Assembly (NCBI GenBank): GCA_026014745.1
Contig: JAOZHS010000002.1
Location: 248,001-312,000 of the forward strand
Reading direction: 5' to 3'
Length of the DNA: 64,000 nucleotides
Source: Candidatus Bathyarchaeota archaeon
GTDB lineage: Archaea > Thermoproteota > Bathyarchaeia > Bathyarchaeales > Bathycorpusculaceae
Shown here: piece by piece, positions 9,347-20,337 of the stretch
Numbering within the stretch: position 1 is the first letter of the stretch
How the letters are laid out: each line of letters starts with the position of its first letter
Made by a program: the position numbers and the translations under genes
Notes under the pieces: model-generated
Told to the model about the DNA's origin: nothing
Databases searched by the model: none
What the model saw: the letters and a program-made list of their open reading frames with translations, nothing else

Positions 9347-9489
9347 ACCCCTCTCTCAGCACCCTTAAACTATGTTGTGTTAGTGACGTGGTGTTTATCA
9401 TTTTTGGTATTTCAAGAAACCAGAAAAGACGCCCTTACGCGGATGTTGCAAGCTTTTTATCTGTGCACTGCGACCTTTGATTGACGCGT

Positions 9490-9975
9490 ATGCCCTCAGA
9501 CATCGAAAAGCAACTCAAAGAATGGTTTGCCGACTTTAGAAAAGTCGTGGTGGCAGGCATAGGGAACCCAATACGCTCAGACGATTATGTAGGCATAAAA
9601 ATCGTAAAAAACCTAAAAGGAAAAGTGCCGCCTAACGTTTACCTGCTAGAATGCGAAACAGTCCCAGAAAGCTACATCTACGACATAGAAAAATTCAACC
9701 CCACCCACATCCTACTCATCGACGCAGCAATTTTAGGCTTAAACCCAGGAGACGTCCGCTTAGTAAAAACCGAAGAATTACACCCATCCTCGGCGATTTC
9801 ATCCCACATGTTGCCGCTAAGGATTTTCTGTGACTACCTCAAAGCATCAACGGAGGCAAAAATCGGTCTGCTACTGGTCGAGCCTAAAAGCATGGAGTTT
9901 GGGGAAGGATTAAGCTGTGAAGTTGAAGCTTCAGCGCAGAGGCTAACGCAGATTCTTCGGGGCTTTCTTAAATGA
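9490..9975 (+). CDS. hydrogenase maturation protease (HycI/HyaD-like)
   Basis: Endopeptidase family M52, which clips the C-terminus of [NiFe]-hydrogenase large subunits after nickel insertion. The key motif GIGNPIRSDDYVGIK holds the first metal-binding acid, LIDAA carries the second acid, and a histidine follows in ISSHMLP, as in the family. The length of about 161 residues is normal. I use the ATG at 9490; a TTG at 9481 in the same frame is also possible. No hydrogenase subunit gene lies in the window, so its substrate must be encoded elsewhere. Related M52 proteases also process other proteins. Confidence 0.82.
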   Translation: MPSDIEKQLKEWFADFRKVVVAGIGNPIRSDDYVGIKIVKNLKGKVPPNVYLLECETVPESYIYDIEKFNPTHILLIDAAILGLNPGDVRLVKTEELHPSSAISSHMLPLRIFCDYLKASTEAKIGLLLVEPKSMEFGEGLSCEVEASAQRLTQILRGFLK

Positions 9976-11133: not shown

Positions 11134-11634
11134 TTATGGTTTGTCTTGTTTCTCTTGGAAGAGCTTCTTGATTGCGCTGATACGAGCCTTCTGCGCCAAC
11201 ACATCACTGGTAACCACAGTCAAAGCTTCTTCAGGACACCACTTAACACATTGGGGACCGTCGGCTTTGTCTTTGCAGAGGTCGCAGACGTATACCCGTT
11301 TGGTTTCGGGGTGTAGCATCATAGCGCCGTAGTCGCAGGCTTCAATGCACCAGCCGCAGCCGTTGCATTTGTCTTTGTCTAAGACGATGTTGCCTGTGTC
11401 GTTTGCTTGAGAGAGGGCGTCACGTGGGCAGGCGGCGACGCATGCTGGTTCTTCGCAGAGTCTGCAGGTGACTGCCATGTTGGCTACTTGGCTGACTCGG
11501 ACGACGCGTATGCGGGATTTCATGGGGTTGAAGCATTTTTCTTTGTTGAAGCTGCAGGCGTATTCGCAGACTTGGCAGCCAACGCATTTTTCGGGGTCAG
11601 CGGAAATGAATTTTCTTTGGTGAACTTTGACCAT
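11134..11634 (-). CDS. four-cluster 4Fe-4S ferredoxin subunit of AOR module 1
   Basis: A 166-residue polyferredoxin. Sixteen cysteines fall into four groups: CVGCQVCEYAC at 17-27, CRLCEEPACVAAC at 57-69, CNGCGWCIEAC at 90-100 and CDLCKDKADGPQCVKWC at 117-133. These predict four [4Fe-4S] clusters, as in AorA of bacterial tungsten aldehyde oxidoreductases and the HycB/DmsB family. It follows the AOR catalytic gene by two bases on the same strand, so it is its likely electron-transfer partner in the cytoplasm. The last 93 coding bases are identical to those in the second module's ferredoxin. Confidence 0.88.
   Translation of the reverse strand: MVKVHQRKFISADPEKCVGCQVCEYACSFNKEKCFNPMKSRIRVVRVSQVANMAVTCRLCEEPACVAACPRDALSQANDTGNIVLDKDKCNGCGWCIEACDYGAMMLHPETKRVYVCDLCKDKADGPQCVKWCPEEALTVVTSDVLAQKARISAIKKLFQEKQDKP
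11155..11247 (-). repeat. 93-bp segment identical in ferredoxin genes 1 and 2 (copy 1)
   Basis: This stretch is base-for-base the same as 13712-13804. It encodes the C-terminal region starting around VKWCPEEALTVV in both ferredoxins. Flanking coding sequence differs at many positions. Confidence 0.9.
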
Positions 11635-11636
11635 TT

Positions 11637-13493
11637 TTAATCCTCCTTGCCTTTCACTATGCTGGAATACTCTTCGAGTCCAAGCGCTTGCAGCTTTTCT
11701 TTACTGGGGATACCTTGCTTAGACCAGCCTCGGGCTTGATAGTAGTCATCCAATAAGAGGTTAAGTTCATCTTTGGTTACTACTGCACCTTTTACGGGTC
11801 CATCATCAGGGACTGGTAGATTCATAACTTTCCAAGGTAACGTGTCGTCTTTTCGGGTCAAGCCCTCGCGGAGGTTGATGAGTTTGGCTAAGTTGATTAT
11901 ACGTTCACCTACAAGGCTAAGTGCCTCTGCAGAAACATCGGCTCCAGTGACTAAATTATAGAGTTTAGCCATGTCCGCGACTTCTTTGTAGAGGGTACCC
12001 TTTGAGTTCTTGCAAATAATAAAAGAGTCAATTAAAGCAAAGATGTCTTCGCCGTCTTTGACGATTTTTCCGCGTCCTGCTTCCGCCTTCAAACGGTCAA
12101 CTTTTCCTTTCAAGTCAACGGTGTAGGCGCCGCTTCGGTTTTGATCTGCGCCACGGAAGGAGACCGCCGCGGCTAATGCTGCAGTTTTAAGGCAACGTAA
12201 ATCAAAGCCAGAGGCTTCTAAACCTTTAATGTGTTGGGCAAGCGGAACGAAATCTTTACCCATTTTTTCGGATGCTGCTTTAACGCCGTCTGCTAAAAGT
12301 TCACCGACGCCTTCGCGTTTGCCGATTTTCTCGACCAGTTGAACAACTGCTTCTGCGTTGCCGAAGTGGGCATCGATACCGCCGAGGTCATCGTGGTTTA
12401 TTAGACCTTTTTCGTGGACTTCCATAAGGAAGCTTATGGCAACGCCAGTGCTGGTTGCGTCTAAGCCGTAGAAGTTGCAGAGTTCGGCGGCTTTAATGAT
12501 TGCGTCAAGCCTGTCTACACCACAATTGGGACCAAGCGCCCAGAGGTTGTCATATTCCATACGTGCTAAGGTGCCTTTGTAGGGTCCTTCACGAACGGTT
12601 GCTTCGTGCTCACATCGCATGGCACAGGAGTTACAGCCGATGACCTTTGCGATGTAGCGTTCGTTTAGTAATTGGCCGCTGACTTTGTCTGCGTCTTCGA
12701 AATGAGCGTTAGTGAAGTTACGTGTGGGCATGCAGTAGAGTTCATTTTGTATCATAACGTTCTCGCTTGAGCCAAGAGTGCGGTACTTCTGTGCTGCGGG
12801 ACCCTTCATACGTTCATGGAATTCTCGAACCATGTCGAGGAATTCTTCAGGTTTTGCAACGAACACGTCGCTGGTTCCCCGCACAGCAATAGCTTTGAGG
12901 TTTTTGCTGCCCATAACAGCGCCTAAACCGGTTCGTCCGGCAGCGCGGGTTTTTTCGTTAATGATATTGGCGATTTTGGATTGCAGCTCACCTGCTAAAC
13001 CGATGGATGCTACACGGATGTAGTAGTCGCCAAGTTCTGTTTTTAGGGCATCCTCGGTTTCACCTGGAGATTTACCCCAAACATGTGATGCATCATAGAG
13101 CTGAACTGAGTCATCATCAATCCAGAGGTAAGAGGGCTTCTCAGCTTTGCCAGTTAAAATTATTGCGTCGTAGCCTGCGCGTTTGAGTTCAGTGCCGAAG
13201 GTGCCGTGGCTTACAGCTTCGCCTAAGGCGTTTGTTTCGGGTGATTTGGATATGAATGCATGTCCGTTTCCGCCTGTGGGGAACATGGTGCCTGCGATTG
13301 GTCCAACTGCTAAAACAAGCGGGTTTTCGGCGCTAAGGGGGTCTACGCCGGCTTTTGAGTTGTCTAGCCAAAGTTTCATGCCTAAACCGATTCCGCCGAT
13401 GAACTTCTTTGCGACGTCTTCACTTAGTTTTTCGGTTCGGGTTTTCCCCGTAGCTAAATCAACGTGGAGGATTTTTCCTGAGTAACCTAGCAA
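11637..13493 (-). CDS. aor: tungsten aldehyde ferredoxin oxidoreductase, module 1
   Basis: Oxidises aldehydes to carboxylic acids using a bis-pyranopterin tungsten cofactor and one [4Fe-4S] cluster. The 618 residues include cluster ligands C287, C290, C294 and C494, which fall at almost the same numbers as in Pyrococcus furiosus AOR (288/291/295/494). A glutamate in RMEYDNLW falls at 313, equivalent to the known active-site Glu313 if numbering transfers. Start is TTG at 13493 with a GAAAGG ribosome site before it, beginning MLGYSGK like the other two copies. It is followed by its four-cluster ferredoxin. The substrate aldehyde is unknown. Confidence 0.92.
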   Translation of the reverse strand: MLGYSGKILHVDLATGKTRTEKLSEDVAKKFIGGIGLGMKLWLDNSKAGVDPLSAENPLVLAVGPIAGTMFPTGGNGHAFISKSPETNALGEAVSHGTFGTELKRAGYDAIILTGKAEKPSYLWIDDDSVQLYDASHVWGKSPGETEDALKTELGDYYIRVASIGLAGELQSKIANIINEKTRAAGRTGLGAVMGSKNLKAIAVRGTSDVFVAKPEEFLDMVREFHERMKGPAAQKYRTLGSSENVMIQNELYCMPTRNFTNAHFEDADKVSGQLLNERYIAKVIGCNSCAMRCEHEATVREGPYKGTLARMEYDNLWALGPNCGVDRLDAIIKAAELCNFYGLDATSTGVAISFLMEVHEKGLINHDDLGGIDAHFGNAEAVVQLVEKIGKREGVGELLADGVKAASEKMGKDFVPLAQHIKGLEASGFDLRCLKTAALAAAVSFRGADQNRSGAYTVDLKGKVDRLKAEAGRGKIVKDGEDIFALIDSFIICKNSKGTLYKEVADMAKLYNLVTGADVSAEALSLVGERIINLAKLINLREGLTRKDDTLPWKVMNLPVPDDGPVKGAVVTKDELNLLLDDYYQARGWSKQGIPSKEKLQALGLEEYSSIVKGKED

Positions 13494-13540
13494 ACCTTTC
13501 TTCTCTCCGAGAGTTTAGAATATTTAGTGAAGGTGAAAAG

Positions 13541-13562
13541 TATATTAAGCTAATGGGTTCTT
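13541..13562 (-). promoter_or_regulatory. shared aor promoter element, copy 1
   Basis: Read on the coding strand this is AAGAACCCATTAGCTTAATA followed by TA, ending about 48 bases before the aor1 start codon. The TTAATATA part is a TATA box placed for a leader of about 20 bases. The adjoining CCCATTA is conserved in all three aor promoters and may be an operator or BRE-like element. Copies 1 and 2 are identical over 22 bases. Confidence 0.7.
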
Positions 13563-13690
13563 CGCGGTGAAATGCACGTTTTTATGTTCCTTTGGGCTCT
13601 GGCAGGGTATCAACTGCAAATATAGACAGCGCTATACCCAAAACCAAAAAAAGCGCCCGAAGGAAAGCTCACCTAAGAAAAGACAGGGGT

Positions 13691-14191
13691 TTATTTTTCG
13701 GCTTCCCGGGTTTGGAAGAGCTTCTTGATTGCGCTGATACGAGCCTTCTGCGCCAACACATCACTGGTAACCACAGTCAAAGCTTCTTCAGGACACCACT
13801 TAACGCACTGAGGACCATCAGAGCGGAATTTACAGAGGTCACAGACGTAGACTGTTTTGGTTTCGGGATGCATCATCATAGCGCCATAACTGCAGGCTTC
13901 CATACACCAGCCGCAACCGTTGCATTGGTCTTTGTCAATAATGATGTTGCCGTTAATGGGTGACTGTGAAAGGGCATCTCTTGGGCAGGCGGCGACGCAG
14001 GCGGGGTCTTGGCATAGACGGCAGGTAACAGCGATGTTTCGGACTTGATTATCCCGAACGACGCGGATACGTGATTTGACTGCGTTGAAAACTTTTTCTT
14101 TGGCAAATGAGCATGCGTATTCGCAGATTTGGCAACCGACGCATTTGTCAGGGTCAGCGGAAATGAATTTTCTTTCGTGCAGATTAACCAT
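13691..14191 (-). CDS. four-cluster 4Fe-4S ferredoxin subunit of AOR module 2
   Basis: A close paralog of the module 1 ferredoxin, also 166 residues with four groups of four cysteines (CVGCQICEYAC, CRLCQDPACVAAC, CNGCGWCMEAC and a final C-x2-C-x8-C-x3-C group ending CVKWC). It is expected to carry electrons from the tungsten enzyme to soluble ferredoxin or another partner. It starts five bases after the AOR2 stop. Its last part is identical at DNA level to module 1 over 93 bases, although the rest has diverged. That pattern is what gene conversion or a very recent partial exchange would leave. Confidence 0.88.
   Translation of the reverse strand: MVNLHERKFISADPDKCVGCQICEYACSFAKEKVFNAVKSRIRVVRDNQVRNIAVTCRLCQDPACVAACPRDALSQSPINGNIIIDKDQCNGCGWCMEACSYGAMMMHPETKTVYVCDLCKFRSDGPQCVKWCPEEALTVVTSDVLAQKARISAIKKLFQTREAEK
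13712..13804 (-). repeat. 93-bp segment identical in ferredoxin genes 1 and 2 (copy 2)
   Basis: Identical to 11155-11247, in the same reading frame and position within the gene. Identity stops at base 13804/11247, where synonymous differences begin. Confidence 0.9.
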
Positions 14192-14196
14192 TTGTT

Positions 14197-16050
14197 TTAG
14201 TTCCTCCCTTCAACTAAGCTGGTATAGTTTTCAAGACCTAACTCTTTTAGGTGGAATGCTGAGGGTAAGCCCCGTTCGTTCCAGTTGCGGGCGTGATAGT
14301 AATCATCTAAGAGCAACTTGAGTTCAGCGGCAGTAACTACTGCACCTTTTGCGGGACCATCATCTGAGATGGGTTGATTCATAACTTTCCAAGGCAAAGT
14401 GTCGTCTTTGCGGGTTAAACCCTCGCGTGTGTTGATAAGTTTAGCAAGGGTCTGTATCCTTTCGCCTGCAACAGCCATTTCATGAGCTGTAACTTCAAAG
14501 CCTGTAACTACATTGTAGACTTTTGCGATGTCTTCTAAGTCGTTGTAGAATGTGCCTTTAGCGTTCTTGCAGACAATTAATGAATCAATCAAATTGAACA
14601 TGTCTTCAAGGTCTTTAACGAGCTTACCGCGGCCCTTCTCGGCAACCAACCGGTCGACTTTCCCCTGTAAATCCAGATTGCAAGCGCCGCTACGGGAATG
14701 GTCTGCGCCACGGAAGGATACAGCAGCGGCTAAGGCGGCTGTTTTAAGTGACCGTAAGTCATAGCCAGTGGCTTCTAAACCTTTAATGTGCTGGGCTAGT
14801 TGGTCTGATTTTTTGCCGATTTTTTCTGAGGCAACCTTTACGCCATCCGCGAGCAGGTCACCGATGCCTTCACGTTTGCCGATTTGATCGATTAGTTTGA
14901 TTAGGGCATTGGCATTGCCGAAGTGCGGGTCGATTCCTACAATTTCTTCGTGTGAGAGAAGCCCTTTTTCGTGGCAATCCATAAGAAAACCGATGACAGC
15001 GCCTGTGCTCTGTGCATCTAAACCATAGAAGGTGCATTTTTCTGTGGCTTTGATGATGAAGTTTAGTTGGTCTATACCACAGTTGGGACCAAACGCCCAA
15101 AGGTTATCGTATTCCATGCGTGCCATGGTTCCGACGTAATAGCCTTCTCGGATTATAGCTTCATGTTCACAACGCATAGCACAGGAGTTACATGCAATAA
15201 TTTTGGCAATGAAATGTTCGTTTAAAACTTCGCTGCTGATTTTGTCAGCGTTCTCAAAGCGAGACTCGTTATAGTTGCGTGTTGGTAGACAAGTTAGGTT
15301 GTTATTGATTTCAAGGTTCTCGGTGGAACCCAAGGTGCGGTATTTCTGTGCCGCGGGACCCTTCATGCGTTCATGGAATTCTTCCACCAGATTCATGAAT
15401 TCGGTCGGGTTTGCAACTGCAACATCATAGGTGCCGCGGACCGCGATGGCTTTGAGGTTTTTACTACCCATAACAGCACCCAAGCCAGTTCTGCCGGCAG
15501 CGCGGGTTTTGTCGTTAATTATGCTAGCAAGCTTTGACTGCTTCTCGCCTGCCAAACCAATAGCAGCTACTCGGACGTAGTGATCGCCAATTTCCTCTTT
15601 GATAGCGTCTTCGGTTTCGCCCGGAGACCTGCCCCAAAGGGTGCGGGCGTCACGTAGTTGCACATTGTCGTCATCAATCCAGAGGTATACAGGTTTGGGA
15701 GATTGACCTGTTATGATGACGGCGTCGTATCCGGCACGTTTAAATTCTGTACCGAAGGTGCCGTGACTTACGGCTTCGCCGACTCCGTTGGTTACGGGTG
15801 ATTTTGAGATAAAGGCATGTCCGTTTCCGCCTGTTGGAAACATTGTGCCTGAAAGGGGACCTACGGCTAGTACGAGCGGGTTTTCTGGACTCAAGGGGCT
15901 CACGTTTGCCTTAGAGTTCGTTAGCCAAAGGTGCATTCCTAAGCCGATGCCGCCGATGTATTTCTTAGCGACGTCTTCGCTTAGTTTTTCGGTTCGGGTT
16001 TTACCCGTGGCTAAATCGACGAATAGTAGTCTTCCAGCATAACCAAACAA
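14197..16050 (-). CDS. aor: tungsten aldehyde ferredoxin oxidoreductase, module 2
   Basis: A paralog of AOR1 with the same architecture: N-terminal pterin-binding region (TGKTRTEKLSEDVAKKYIGG), the cluster motif CNSCAMRC, the fourth ligand in SLIVCKNAKG and the RMEYDNLW glutamate. The arginine-histidine pair GADHSRSG replaces GADQNRSG of AOR1 near the active site. I choose the TTG at 16050, which aligns with the starts of the other two copies (MFGYAG) and has GGAG upstream. An ATG at 16068 would add six residues. With the TTG start, all three genes sit 42-48 bases from their TATA box. The substrate is unknown. Confidence 0.9.
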   Translation of the reverse strand: MFGYAGRLLFVDLATGKTRTEKLSEDVAKKYIGGIGLGMHLWLTNSKANVSPLSPENPLVLAVGPLSGTMFPTGGNGHAFISKSPVTNGVGEAVSHGTFGTEFKRAGYDAVIITGQSPKPVYLWIDDDNVQLRDARTLWGRSPGETEDAIKEEIGDHYVRVAAIGLAGEKQSKLASIINDKTRAAGRTGLGAVMGSKNLKAIAVRGTYDVAVANPTEFMNLVEEFHERMKGPAAQKYRTLGSTENLEINNNLTCLPTRNYNESRFENADKISSEVLNEHFIAKIIACNSCAMRCEHEAIIREGYYVGTMARMEYDNLWAFGPNCGIDQLNFIIKATEKCTFYGLDAQSTGAVIGFLMDCHEKGLLSHEEIVGIDPHFGNANALIKLIDQIGKREGIGDLLADGVKVASEKIGKKSDQLAQHIKGLEATGYDLRSLKTAALAAAVSFRGADHSRSGACNLDLQGKVDRLVAEKGRGKLVKDLEDMFNLIDSLIVCKNAKGTFYNDLEDIAKVYNVVTGFEVTAHEMAVAGERIQTLAKLINTREGLTRKDDTLPWKVMNQPISDDGPAKGAVVTAAELKLLLDDYYHARNWNERGLPSAFHLKELGLENYTSLVEGRN

Positions 16051-16094
16051 TCGTTTCGTCTCCAACATTTTAAATTCATCAATTGAATGGAGAA

Positions 16095-16116
16095 TATATT
16101 AAGCTAATGGGTTCTT
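16095..16116 (-). promoter_or_regulatory. shared aor promoter element, copy 2
   Basis: The same 22 bases as the module 1 element at 13541-13562, beginning 45 bases upstream of the preferred aor2 TTG start. It holds the TATA box (TTAATATA on the coding strand) and the conserved CCCATTA. The flanking sequence on either side differs from copy 1, so the match is not just part of a long duplication. Confidence 0.7.
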
Positions 16117-16385
16117 TCGCTTGAAATTCATGGCATTCCTTGACGTTGGAGTTGCCAGCTCAGATAGCCGTTCTGAGTTATTTTTTAAACCGAATTTATG
16201 AGAAAAATCTGTTTTTGAAACAAAAAACATTCTAACCTGATTATTCAACTAAACGCAATTGAAAAAAAAGACAGGTTCCAATTCCCCTAAACAACATTGA
16301 ATAAACAATACCCTTCAATATTAAACCTAAAGACTACCAGTATACGCAGCTTTTAAAAGCAAACTGATTAGGTATAAAATACCAT
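16117..16385. other. AT-rich intergenic region between AOR2 and a small membrane protein gene
   Basis: No gene is supported. A perfect 12-base palindrome GCTTTTAAAAGC at about 16350-16361 lies some 30 bases before the ATG at 16386 and could be the TATA region of that gene. Directly before the ATG is GGTATAAAATACC, an inverted repeat that may be an operator. The rest is A-rich without recognisable RNA features. Confidence 0.4.
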
Positions 16386-16697
16386 ATGACCGGCAGAAAA
16401 AAACTATGCATCAACGCCATAGGCTTCACACTATATGTACTCTGCATAGGCATAGCCCTTAGCATAACGATACTGTGGCTAAAAATACTAATAACAGGGT
16501 TAATAGCAGCCGTGACGGCAGGCCACATATATGCACTCTACCGTTACCGACACGCAAACAAACAACAAAAACAAAAAAGGGACGACCAAAAAACTCTATA
16601 CCGCTACTACTATGACCGATGGTACACCCCGGCGGATTCAACAAGAATAGAACACGAGAAAGAAAAACTAAAAAAGTTATCCCGAAAACAAAAATAA
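16386..16697 (+). CDS. small membrane protein between AOR modules
   Basis: A 103-residue protein with two hydrophobic segments (about residues 10-30 and 33-52) and a long, highly basic and aromatic tail (YRYYYDRWYTP, then lysine-rich to the end). No family is recognised. It lies between AOR module 2 and module 3 on the opposite strand and stops eight bases before the module 3 ferredoxin stop. Codon use and membrane layout make it plausible. A link to aldehyde metabolism is not supported beyond position. Confidence 0.5.
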   Translation: MTGRKKLCINAIGFTLYVLCIGIALSITILWLKILITGLIAAVTAGHIYALYRYRHANKQQKQKRDDQKTLYRYYYDRWYTPADSTRIEHEKEKLKKLSRKQK

Positions 16698-16705
16698 AAA
16701 AAGAA

Positions 16706-17212
16706 TCATTGGCTATTTTTGGTTGCCGCATCAAAAAGGTGCTTAACAGCTTTATTTCGACCCCTCTGCGCCAACGTCTCCGCATTCACAACAGTCAATG
16801 CATCGTTTGGACACCATTTGACGCACTGCGGCTCCTTTTCGTCATTTTCAGTGCAATTATTACAGAGGAAAACAACGCGCTTGCCGGGGTGAACAGTTAT
16901 GGCACCGAATTGGCAAGCGTTGATGCACCAGCCGCAGCCGTTGCAGATTTCTTCGTTGACGCGGATGATGCCTGTGGCTTCTTCTTGAGTTAAGGCGTTT
17001 CGTGGGCAAGCTGCAACGCAGGCGGGGTGTTCACAGTGGCGACAACTGATAGCGAGGTTAGTTACAGGGTCAAGACGCATGGCACGGATACGGGATTTAG
17101 TTGGGTTAAAGGTTTTCTCGTTTGCCATGCTGCAGACGTATTCGCAGACCAGACAACCTGTGCATTTTTCAGGGTCAGCAGTTATGAATTTTCGGTCATG
17201 AGGTCGAACCAC
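16706..17212 (-). CDS. four-cluster 4Fe-4S ferredoxin subunit of AOR module 3
   Basis: The third polyferredoxin of the array, 168 residues, with cysteine groups CTGCLVCEYVC, CRHCEHPACVAAC, CNGCGWCINAC and CNNC plus CVKWC, again four predicted [4Fe-4S] clusters. It is clearly more distant from the other two: the last cluster spacing carries an acidic insertion (TENDEKEP), and the N-terminal HDRKFITADPEKC differs. It starts two bases after AOR3. It is the presumed electron acceptor of AOR3, in an AorAB-like pair. Confidence 0.88.
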   Translation of the reverse strand: MVRPHDRKFITADPEKCTGCLVCEYVCSMANEKTFNPTKSRIRAMRLDPVTNLAISCRHCEHPACVAACPRNALTQEEATGIIRVNEEICNGCGWCINACQFGAITVHPGKRVVFLCNNCTENDEKEPQCVKWCPNDALTVVNAETLAQRGRNKAVKHLFDAATKNSQ

Positions 17213-17213
17213 A

Positions 17214-19100
17214 CTATGCGCCTCCCGTCACGGTTTGATTATTAGTGGTTTGAGCATTTTTGACGATAGAAGCTAAATCAGCTAAGCCAAGTGCTTGGAG
17301 ACGATCAACCGTTGGGACGCCATCTTTAGTCCAGCCACGCGCTGCATAGTAGTAATCGAGACCCAATTGAAGTTCGGGGTCGGTTACGCAGACTCCATGT
17401 GTAGGACCACGGTCGGGTATAGGTTGCTTGATTTTATAGGGGACAGTGTCGTATTTGCGGGTGCCTTTGCCTTCTCGGATGTTGAAGAGGCGTGCAAGGT
17501 TTTCTACGCGGTCGCCTACTTGAGCTAATTCTTCGGCTGTCACCGAGATGCCAGTGGCAAGCGTGTAGTACGCGGCAAGTTCGGGGTAGCCTTTGTATAT
17601 GGCGCGGCTGTAGTTGCACAGGATAAGCGAGTCCAAAACGTTGTACATTTGGGTTTCTTCCAGGACTATTTTGCCGCGGCCTGATTCGATTTTTAGGCGA
17701 TTTACTTTTCCTGATATGTCAAGGGTAGCAGCGTTGCTTCTTAGCTGTGAGGCTCCTGAGTAGCTGACGCTAAATGCTAAAGCGGCGGTTTTGAGGCTTC
17801 GGATATCGTAGCCGGGTACTTCTAAGCCTTTGATGTTGCAAGCGTAATTCTCGGCTCCTTTACCGATTAATTCGGCTGCTTTAGCTGTGCCTTCAGCGAG
17901 GATGTTGCCAAGCCAGCCTTCCCGTGTGCCAATTTTTTGAATTATCTCAAGTAGTGCGTCGGCGTTTCCAAATTTGAGTTCTAAACCGTTGGTTTGCGCC
18001 CTTGTAAGTATACCGTGCTCGTATAGGTCCATGGCAAATGCCACTGTGACCCCAGTGGAGGTAACGTCTAAGCCGTACAGGTTGGCTAGATGAATAGCCT
18101 GGACTATTACGTCTAATTGGTCGATACCACAAAGGGGACCCATACTCCAAAGACCCTCAGAAGTGAGACGAACCGTAACACCTTTGAAAGGACCATCAGG
18201 CACAACCGCAATATGGTCACAGGACATACCGCAAGTTGCACATCCAACAATTTTTTTGACGTAAACGCCTGTCAGTTCTTCGCCGCTGATGTTGTCTATG
18301 CCTGCGAAGGCGGCGTTGGTCCAGTTTCGGGTCGGCAACGCAGAAAGCGCATTGAGGACTTCAACGTTTTCGGGGGTGCCTGCGGTTGTGTATTTTTTTG
18401 TTTCAGGGTCTTTCATGCGTTCAAAAATGATTTTGATGAATTCTCGAAAGCCCGCAAAGTCAGCGGCGCCCACGTCATGTGAACCTCGGATGGCGATGGC
18501 TTTGAGGTTTTTACTGCCCATAACGGCGCCTAGTCCTGTGCGCTCGGCACCGTGGAAGCCGTCATTAACTATGGAGGCAAATCGACAGAGTTTCTCTCCT
18601 GCTTCGCCGATGGTGGCGATGCGGATGTAGGGGTCTCCGAATTCATTTTGGATTATTTGCTCCGTTTCGTTGGAGGGTTTGTTTCTGAGTTTTTCGCTGC
18701 CGCGGATTTCGATTGTTTCGTCATCAATCCAAAGATAAGATAAACGGGAAGCTTTGCCCGTTATGACTATGGCGTCGTATCCGGCGCGTTTAAGTTCAGG
18801 ACCGAAAAAGCCGTGAGCGACCGATTCGCCGACTCCGCCTGTGGCAGGGGATTTGGAGACCACGGCGTAGCAGCTGCCGCCTGTTGGAGCCAATGTACCC
18901 GTTAAAGGCCCTGTGGCGAAGACAAGGGGGTTATCAGGATGTAGAGGGTCGGTACCCGCTGAAGAGTTATCCATAAGTAAACGTATGCCTAAGCCGACGC
19001 CGCCGAGATAGGCTTTAGCCAAATCATTAGTGAGGGTTCTGGTTTTTGTTTGCCCAGTAGTGAGGTTAACATACAAGATTTTTCCTGCATAAGCAAACAT
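17214..19100 (-). CDS. aor: aldehyde ferredoxin oxidoreductase, divergent module 3
   Basis: An AOR-family protein of 628 residues. The cluster ligands are kept (CATCGMSC and the later SLILCNYS). However, the segment equivalent to RMEYDNLW reads RLTSEGLW, so threonine replaces the position aligned with Glu313 and a glutamate appears two residues later. Other blocks (TGPLTGTLAPTGGSCYAV) also differ from copies 1 and 2. It may use a different substrate or belong to another branch, such as the WOR or GOR types. It begins at ATG 19100, 42 bases from its TATA element, and is followed by its ferredoxin. Confidence 0.9.
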   Translation of the reverse strand: MFAYAGKILYVNLTTGQTKTRTLTNDLAKAYLGGVGLGIRLLMDNSSAGTDPLHPDNPLVFATGPLTGTLAPTGGSCYAVVSKSPATGGVGESVAHGFFGPELKRAGYDAIVITGKASRLSYLWIDDETIEIRGSEKLRNKPSNETEQIIQNEFGDPYIRIATIGEAGEKLCRFASIVNDGFHGAERTGLGAVMGSKNLKAIAIRGSHDVGAADFAGFREFIKIIFERMKDPETKKYTTAGTPENVEVLNALSALPTRNWTNAAFAGIDNISGEELTGVYVKKIVGCATCGMSCDHIAVVPDGPFKGVTVRLTSEGLWSMGPLCGIDQLDVIVQAIHLANLYGLDVTSTGVTVAFAMDLYEHGILTRAQTNGLELKFGNADALLEIIQKIGTREGWLGNILAEGTAKAAELIGKGAENYACNIKGLEVPGYDIRSLKTAALAFSVSYSGASQLRSNAATLDISGKVNRLKIESGRGKIVLEETQMYNVLDSLILCNYSRAIYKGYPELAAYYTLATGISVTAEELAQVGDRVENLARLFNIREGKGTRKYDTVPYKIKQPIPDRGPTHGVCVTDPELQLGLDYYYAARGWTKDGVPTVDRLQALGLADLASIVKNAQTTNNQTVTGGA

Positions 19101-19141: not shown

Positions 19142-19158
19142 TATATTAATATAATGGG
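19142..19158 (-). promoter_or_regulatory. shared aor promoter element, divergent copy 3
   Basis: Reads TATATTAATATAATGGG on the plus strand against TATATTAAGCTAATGGG in copies 1 and 2. Both the TATA box and the GGG-side block are kept, at the same distance from the start codon as in the other modules. Confidence 0.6.
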
Positions 19159-19260: not shown

Positions 19261-20337
19261 TTGACACGCACCCAAAGCCTAAAAACAGCCGCTGCCAAAC
19301 AAGGCAAACCTGACACATACGCAATTTTTAACCCCACAAACATAACCTACTACACCAACTTCCCAGCCGCAACCGCCCTGCTTATCCCGCCTGAAGGCAA
19401 AAACATCCTCTACGTCTCGGGAACCAACTATGAACAAGCCAAAGCCGAAGCCCAAAACGTGACCGTGGAACTGCTCCGTCGCGGGGAGAGCGTTTATGAA
19501 AAAATCGCACAGCAGGTCCCTAACATGAAAATCGGCGTGGACACGTTGAGTTTTGAGAGTTGGCGTTTATTTTCGAAAATCTTGGGGGGAGCGGACAAGC
19601 TTGATTCCGTTGGCAGCATTATTCGTGACCAGCGTGCCGTCAAAGACGCACAAGAAATCGAGCTTATCCAAGCTGCCTGCAAAATCGCGGATATAGGCAT
19701 CCAAACAGCCGCGGAGTTCATCCGTCCCGGCTTAAAAGACAAAGAAGTTGCCGCTGAAGTGGAGTATGCAATGCGTAAGGCGGGGTCTGATGGCACTGCC
19801 TTTGAAACCATTGTGGCATCGGGGCATTGCTGCGCGTATCCTCATGGCACATTCACCGAGAAAACCATTCAAGAAGGCGACTTAGTGGTCGTGGACATTG
19901 GCGCCACCATCAAGTTTTACCGCTCCGACATAACCCGCACCTTCGCCGCAAACAGCCCCACCGAGAAACAACGCCGCATCTACGAAGCCGTAAAATTAGC
20001 CCACCAAGCAGCATACCAAAAAATCAAACCCCACGTCTTGGCACGGGAAGTAGATATGGCAGCAAGACAAGTGATTGAAACTGCTGGGTTCGCCGAATTC
20101 TTCGTACACAATCTGGGGCATGGAGTCGGCTTGGAGGTACATGAAGCGCCTGTGCTGAGTCCTGACAGCAAAGACCTCCTCGAAGAAGGCAACGTAGTCA
20201 CAGATGAGCCAGGGGTTTATCTTCCTGGGTACGGCGGCGTCCGAATAGAAGATACCGTGCATGTCACGGAGAATGGCGCAGAAAAGTTAACACATGCGCC
20301 TATCGGGTTATCTGCGGAATTTCCTGAAAGAAAATAG
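19261..20337 (+). CDS. Xaa-Pro peptidase, M24 family
   Basis: A cytoplasmic metallopeptidase that removes N-terminal residues before proline. The N-terminal creatinase-like domain covers about residues 1-125, and the pita-bread catalytic domain follows. All five metal ligands can be seen in order: the aspartates in VVVDIGAT and RSDITRTF, the histidine in HNLGHGVGLEVHE, the glutamate in TDEPGVY and the final glutamate in GGVRIED. The length of 358 is typical of archaeal PepQ. Start is TTG at 19261 with no in-frame ATG nearby. The gene diverges from AOR3 and its end overlaps the next reverse gene by 30 bases. Confidence 0.9.
   Translation: MTRTQSLKTAAAKQGKPDTYAIFNPTNITYYTNFPAATALLIPPEGKNILYVSGTNYEQAKAEAQNVTVELLRRGESVYEKIAQQVPNMKIGVDTLSFESWRLFSKILGGADKLDSVGSIIRDQRAVKDAQEIELIQAACKIADIGIQTAAEFIRPGLKDKEVAAEVEYAMRKAGSDGTAFETIVASGHCCAYPHGTFTEKTIQEGDLVVVDIGATIKFYRSDITRTFAANSPTEKQRRIYEAVKLAHQAAYQKIKPHVLAREVDMAARQVIETAGFAEFFVHNLGHGVGLEVHEAPVLSPDSKDLLEEGNVVTDEPGVYLPGYGGVRIEDTVHVTENGAEKLTHAPIGLSAEFPERK

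Follow-up and report, generated by a model that had tools for sequence, protein, structure and literature searches.

Results

Three tandem AOR–ferredoxin pairs

The window analyzed here, a stretch of 64,000 nucleotides, belongs to an uncultured soil-type archaeon of the genus Candidatus Bathycorpusculum, whose genome assembly (2.7 Mb in 3 contigs) is 97.5% complete. ORF calls place three pairs of genes in tandem on the minus strand, each an aldehyde oxidoreductase (AOR) gene with its ferredoxin gene, transcribed in the order AOR3, AOR2, AOR1 (Table 1). A genome-wide PF01314 search recovered these three AORs and no further member of the family, and AOR2 carries the Pfam domains AFOR_N and AFOR_C. 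By alignment, the four cluster cysteines at positions 288, 291, 295 and 494 of the Pyrococcus furiosus enzyme (PfAOR) are present in AOR1, AOR2 and AOR3, as is Asp489, and each ferredoxin has 16 ligand cysteines, ferredoxin 1 having one extra (17 in total). The ORFs, domains and ligand counts thus confirm the three tandem pairs of AOR and four-cluster ferredoxin of the preliminary description; the spacing of 2–5 bases given there holds for pairs 1 and 2 (2 and 5 bases), the gap in pair 3 being 1 base. AOR1 is 72% identical to AOR2 and 51% identical to AOR3. PurE, one unknown gene, a HycI protease and an M24 peptidase flank the pairs, and a putative 103-aa ORF with a hydrophobic segment (16386–16697, plus strand) lies inside the 637 bases that separate pair 2 from pair 3.

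Table 1. Genes and promoter-like elements of the AOR locus, in window coordinates
Feature	Position	Strand	Remarks
HycI-type hydrogenase maturation protease (context gene)	9481..9975	+	conserved neighbor of pairs, 27 loci
WorS1, four-cluster [4Fe-4S] ferredoxin paired with AOR1	11134..11634	-	166 aa; ORF, Cys count, AlphaFold model
AOR1 / WorL1	11637..13493	-	618 aa, TTG start; group A
CCCATTAGCTTAATATA promoter element upstream of AOR1	13541..13557	-	motif search
WorS2, four-cluster ferredoxin paired with AOR2	13691..14191	-	166 aa; ORF, Cys count, sequence matches
AOR2 / WorL2	14197..16068	-	623 aa; group A
CCCATTAGCTTAATATA promoter element upstream of AOR2	16095..16111	-	motif search
WorS3, four-cluster ferredoxin paired with AOR3	16706..17212	-	168 aa, GTG start
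AOR3 / WorL3	17214..19100	-	628 aa; group B; all cluster Cys kept
CCCATTATATTAATATA promoter element upstream of AOR3	19142..19158	-	motif search
M24 peptidase, Xaa-Pro dipeptidase-like (context gene)	19261..20337	+	conserved divergent neighbor, 33 loci

Family and phylogeny

The best solved relatives of AOR2 are the electron-bifurcating aldehyde oxidoreductase 9mqx (class IV), Pyrococcus AOR and Aromatoleum AorB, and those of ferredoxin 2 are the small subunits of 9mqx and 8c0z (AorA), HycB3 of HDCR and the WOR5 small subunit, with 9mqx the best sequence match of both proteins. The AlphaFold model of AOR3 (pLDDT 92.8) matches solved AOR structures at TM 0.91–0.93 in Foldseek, and that of ferredoxin 1 (pLDDT 79) has a double-ferredoxin fold with three tungsten-enzyme small subunits as its top matches; 9mqx again leads for both models. 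In sequence and in fold, tungsten oxidoreductase small subunits (9mqx, 8c0z AorA, WOR5) come mostly ahead of HycB-type proteins among the ferredoxin matches.

In a quick IQ-TREE phylogeny (SH-aLRT, long branches) that placed the large subunits (WorL) against PfAOR, CaAOR, AaAorB and 9mqx, the WorL proteins of these pairs fall in a Bathyarchaeia-dominated clade (SH-aLRT 100, one record titled Nezhaarchaeota). The clade stands apart from PfAOR plus CaAOR and from AaAorB plus 9mqx, a branch of SH-aLRT 100 separating it from the AorB clade. It splits into what the tree indicates are two old paralogue groups: AOR3 belongs to group B, and AOR1 and AOR2, products of a duplication within the genus, to group A.

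Judged from gene content, an adjacent WorS gene and no NAD/flavin subunit gene near the three pairs, these are class II (WorL plus WorS) tungsten oxidoreductases in the scheme of PMC13328260. They resemble the class II enzymes WOR5/ASOR of P. furiosus and GOR of Caldicellulosiruptor in having two adjacent genes for a W-pterin large subunit and a four-cluster small subunit, in the presumed use of ferredoxin as acceptor and in the absence of a flavin subunit; they differ in their separate, Bathyarchaeia-dominated clade, in the three tandem pairs and in second-shell changes in two of the three. Unlike 9mqx, they have no genes for NADH/flavin subunits nearby. P. furiosus AOR (1aor) has the fold, cluster ligands and Asp489 in common with them, but is of the single-subunit type without WorS and has the canonical T243/E313/Y427/H448. 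The AOR–ferredoxin pairs themselves are of a known kind, and the variation lies in the altered catalytic sites of two copies. Of 92 tungsten oxidoreductase clades counted, only five hold a member with a defined physiological role (PMC13328260), and we found published biochemistry for no member of the Bathyarchaeia-dominated clade.

Spread of the pair among relatives

Among related WorL genes in the fetched loci, 109 of 129 have the same ferredoxin directly 3′ (median start offset 3), so the pairing is not a matter of chance; the remainder belong largely to distant clades or come from cut ORFs or contigs. As 87 of the 91 genomes searched in the family also carry AOR-type genes, the pair is an old and stable unit of Bathyarchaeia. 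Several of the comparison genomes are fragmented MAGs. Among relatives with names, the closest are MAGs of Candidatus Bathyarchaeota, many of them described in their titles as bins from peat, soil or sediment, and Candidatus Bathycorpusculum from termite guts; peat and termite gut as habitats are presumed partly from isolate names. Outside the genus, Mvh, Hdr and Tfr-like genes and the HycI protease (names by inspection) often neighbor the pairs, and of these the window retains the protease.

In seven sister genomes (G009, G013, G024, G032, G033, G034, G038; L145–L158) the N-terminal and C-terminal parts of AOR sit on separate contigs, which raised the possibility of gene fission. This was rejected: the fetched fragments lie at contig ends and therefore reflect assembly breakage, probably in near-identical tandem copies. 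Separately, termite-gut Bathycorpusculum genomes hold an extra four-cluster ferredoxin with no AOR directly upstream (L178:6524-7015, L164:2070-2561, L018:3328-3819), each preceded by its own TTAATATA-type box; a search upstream of these orphans for AOR remnants gave no significant match.

Catalytic residues and selection

In aldehyde-oxidizing members of the family, T243, E313, Y427 and H448 (PfAOR numbering) form a conserved second-shell set (PMC12096430, PMC13328260), and by alignment the full set of AOR sensu stricto occurs in none of the three copies. AOR1 reads S/D/F/Q (T243S, E313D, Y427F and H448Q, at its own positions 242, 315, 430 and 451). AOR2 reads S/D/Y/H, with T243S and E313D, both conservative, and with Y427 and H448 kept; on this comparison it is the most nearly canonical of the three. 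AOR3 reads T/E/Y/Q and carries the changes R182H, A183G, G185E, E311T, Y312S, R444S, H448Q and F496Y; Ala183 coordinates Mg via its backbone (PMC12096430). Beyond the genus, nearly every relative retains the catalytic columns T-E-(Y/F)-E-Y-H that are changed here. All group A members of the genus that were analyzed carry E313D and F496N, and H448Q requires four separate changes on the tree (AOR1, AOR3, L005 and L006).

Changes were counted in 100 columns, each conserved to at least 97% across 70 relatives from outside the genus and found in no fewer than 4 of 5 reference AORs. In these columns AOR3 has 10 changes, including R182H, A183G, G185E, R444S and H448Q. Group B orthologues of seven same-genus (peat-type) relatives have 0, and those of termite-gut members 17–24. 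Relative to their L004 orthologues, Nei–Gojobori estimates, made with synonymous sites near saturation, are dN 0.12, dS 1.28 and dN/dS ~0.10 for AOR1 and dN 0.24, dS 1.79 and dN/dS ~0.13 for AOR3, with ratios of ~0.18–0.21 for termite group B pairs and 0.06 for normal group B. By these measures AOR1 and AOR3 are not pseudogenes, and the constraint on them appears relaxed but purifying. AOR3 and ferredoxin 3 are 67% and 73% identical to their L004 orthologues, where the intact L004/L009 pair keeps 92–93%; the two accelerated together, which indirectly supports a joint enzyme.

A promoter-like element upstream of each AOR

At ≤1 mismatch, CCCATTAnnTTAATATA occurs exactly 3 times in the 2.7-Mb genome, once upstream of each AOR; its reversed control pattern has 0 matches in the whole genome. 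Within the window the three AOR elements are the only matches at ≤3 mismatches (0.13 expected). In 1.1 Mb comprising the window and related loci, 41 of 43 matches to CCATTAnnTTAATATA lie 16–68 bases 5′ of a called AOR start; of the remaining two, one is near a contig end and one just inside an over-long group A AOR ORF (L078). The TTAATATA portion reads as an archaeal TATA box, and the inverted repeat ATTA-N3-TAAT inside the element could bind a dimeric regulator. The CCCATTA part is gone from the group B genes of termite-gut members. A search for bacterial-type promoters found no clear excess.

Cofactor genes, electron partners and WorX

The preliminary description had proposed a genome search for tungstate transport and moa genes. 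The genome encodes MoaA, with MoaC and a MoaB-like protein beside it (by inspection), two adjacent MoeA and a ModA-type binding protein with permease; WtpA was not found. A ModE-like regulator stands beside the ModA-type binding protein and ModB-type permease (L197:1492-2879), making this a candidate locus for molybdate/tungstate uptake. Matches to PF12849 were rejected as a tungstate transporter: the strong one is PstS-like and belongs to a Pst cluster, and a LysR-type regulator accounts for the other. The genes fit W and Mo alike, and tungsten is the presumed metal. Genes for hydrogenase large subunits are part of an HdrBC-MvhAG cluster, at a distance of tens of kilobases, and of a group 4-type membrane complex (subunit names by inspection). 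Adjoining moaC is a gene for a 1015-aa protein (L084:7903-10950) whose C-terminal stretch resembles, by eye, a tail-spike intramolecular chaperone; it may be what remains of a provirus next to the molybdopterin genes.

The AOR-linked ThiS/MoaD protein (PMC1779556), named WorX in PMC13328260, adjoins pairs in 31 loci, including L004:7484-7888. Close homologues (60–100%) occur in nine genomes of the genus (G015–G020, G028, G030, G037), all nine of which have a close group B AOR, in G019 only as a fragment at a contig end. The window genome has only generic MoaD-like proteins (21–26% identity), and WorX is likewise missing from the termite-gut genomes and from genomes without a full-length group B match. 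In these sequences, WorX presence appears to go with a close group B AOR, and its absence with an eroded or lost one. This is an association, and since the genomes concerned look like one lineage, it may reflect a single event.

Discussion

We suggest that the locus probably encodes one near-canonical aldehyde oxidoreductase and two co-regulated paralogues with altered chemistry, all as WorLS heterodimers. Gene order, cysteine ligands, phylogeny, residue changes, selection and the shared promoter-like element are the observed basis of this reading; what it says of metal, substrate, complex formation, electron acceptor and loss of aldehyde activity is what we infer. Each pair would form a WorL–WorS heterodimer of the class II type, with a W/Mo-bispyranopterin and one [4Fe-4S] cluster in WorL and four [4Fe-4S] clusters in WorS, a five-cluster chain that would lead electrons from the buried active site to a soluble ferredoxin; the next acceptor is probably one of the hydrogenases whose genes lie at other sites in the genome, HdrBC-MvhAG or group 4. 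For AOR2 the probable role is that of a functional aldehyde oxidoreductase, or of an acid reductase if it runs in reverse. AOR1 and AOR3 have other residues in place of the acid/base ones around the metal, with purifying selection still acting on fold, cluster ligands and partner, and most likely their aldehyde chemistry is altered or absent. Having lost residues presumed essential and yet being intact behind a common promoter-like element, these two may do something other than oxidize aldehydes. Changed second-shell residues without known aldehyde activity have precedents in the WOR4, YdhV and BamB clades, although the substitutions there differ from those in AOR1 and AOR3, and a Cys acquired in YdhV and BamB serves there as a metal ligand.

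That each copy is tuned to a different aldehyde, as first proposed, fits poorly with the absence from AOR1 and AOR3 of second-shell residues held necessary for aldehyde oxidation. Still, the changes may merely reshape the pockets of three ordinary aldehyde oxidoreductases with differing substrate ranges, an unlikely reading with a real chance of being right. The intact fold and cluster ligands, the purifying selection and the common promoter element would all suit it. Active enzymes with a single second-shell substitution are also known (C. formicoaceticum AOR, E. acidaminophilum AOR and WOR5; PMC12096430), and E313D and T243S are conservative changes, so oxidation of some aldehyde by AOR1 and AOR3 may persist. 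Against it, AOR1 is altered at all four second-shell positions, AOR3 at H448 and in the segment around the Mg/pterin-phosphate residue A183, and the T-E-(Y/F)-E-Y-H columns hardly vary outside the genus. A further reading takes the loss of residues in the Mg/pterin-phosphate segment, of part of the acid/base set and of WorX, with the five-cluster chain, partner and promoter kept, as a sign that the WorLS pair was repurposed in Ca. Bathycorpusculum. We regard it as speculative that AOR3, and perhaps AOR1, co-regulated with one true oxidoreductase, has turned into an enzyme of electron transfer or of non-aldehyde chemistry whose pterin cofactor is modified or missing. AOR3 might instead be in slow decay and heading for loss as in several sister genomes: five relatives that are 90–99% complete (G025, G026, G027, G029, G031) lack a full-length group B match, and group B is more eroded in termite-gut members. 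Its intact ORF, its partner with 16 of 16 cysteines, its dN/dS and its retained promoter element make such a fate improbable.

The preliminary description also likened the pairs to AorAB complexes and their filaments. A WorL–WorS complex is consistent with the small-subunit matches and the co-acceleration; the filaments fared less well, given a WorL outside the AorB clade and no AorC. In such filaments WorS would polymerize through its C-terminal helix and be decorated by WorL, conducting electrons as in AorAB. AorA filament formation depends on a C-terminal helix (PMC10413684), and the fold of WorS is close to AorA and to the 9mqx small subunit. AlphaFold predicts a helix at residues 143–163 of ferredoxin 1 (pLDDT ~60–73), in which Q148, R151 and L158 are invariant in 43 ferredoxin sequences. 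The predicted helix appears to resemble that of AorA in position only; being predicted and conserved class-wide, it leaves filaments a small probability, and we consider them quite doubtful. According to PMC10413684, only its own subclade has the AorA helix, and the window WorL falls outside that clade; no gene for AorC, the NAD/FAD subunit that could nucleate a filament, adjoins the three pairs; and the helix could bind WorL instead. Compared with the AorABC of Aromatoleum aromaticum (class III, 8c0z), the pairs are alike in their AorB- and AorA-like subunits and in a C-terminal helix predicted on the small subunit, and differ in lacking AorC and in belonging to another clade.

Under our preferred reading, of one near-canonical enzyme and two altered paralogues, a genus in which a paralogue loses catalytic residues and keeps its wiring offers natural variants for testing the residues of a still hypothetical AOR mechanism, and for testing whether WorX serves particular WorL proteins only. 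A handle on the regulation of these enzymes comes from the promoter element. Bathyarchaeia are widespread in sediments and soils.

Two further observations concern more distant relatives. A 709-aa AOR homologue (L053:1348-3477), for which no adjacent ferredoxin was found, has Gly at the Asp489 position. In some Bathyarchaeia outside the genus, a further ferredoxin-like protein (~200 aa) is encoded after the pair (L058:10384-11001, L060:10399-11007, L062:3402-4004, L079:10235-10843) and is a possible third subunit there.
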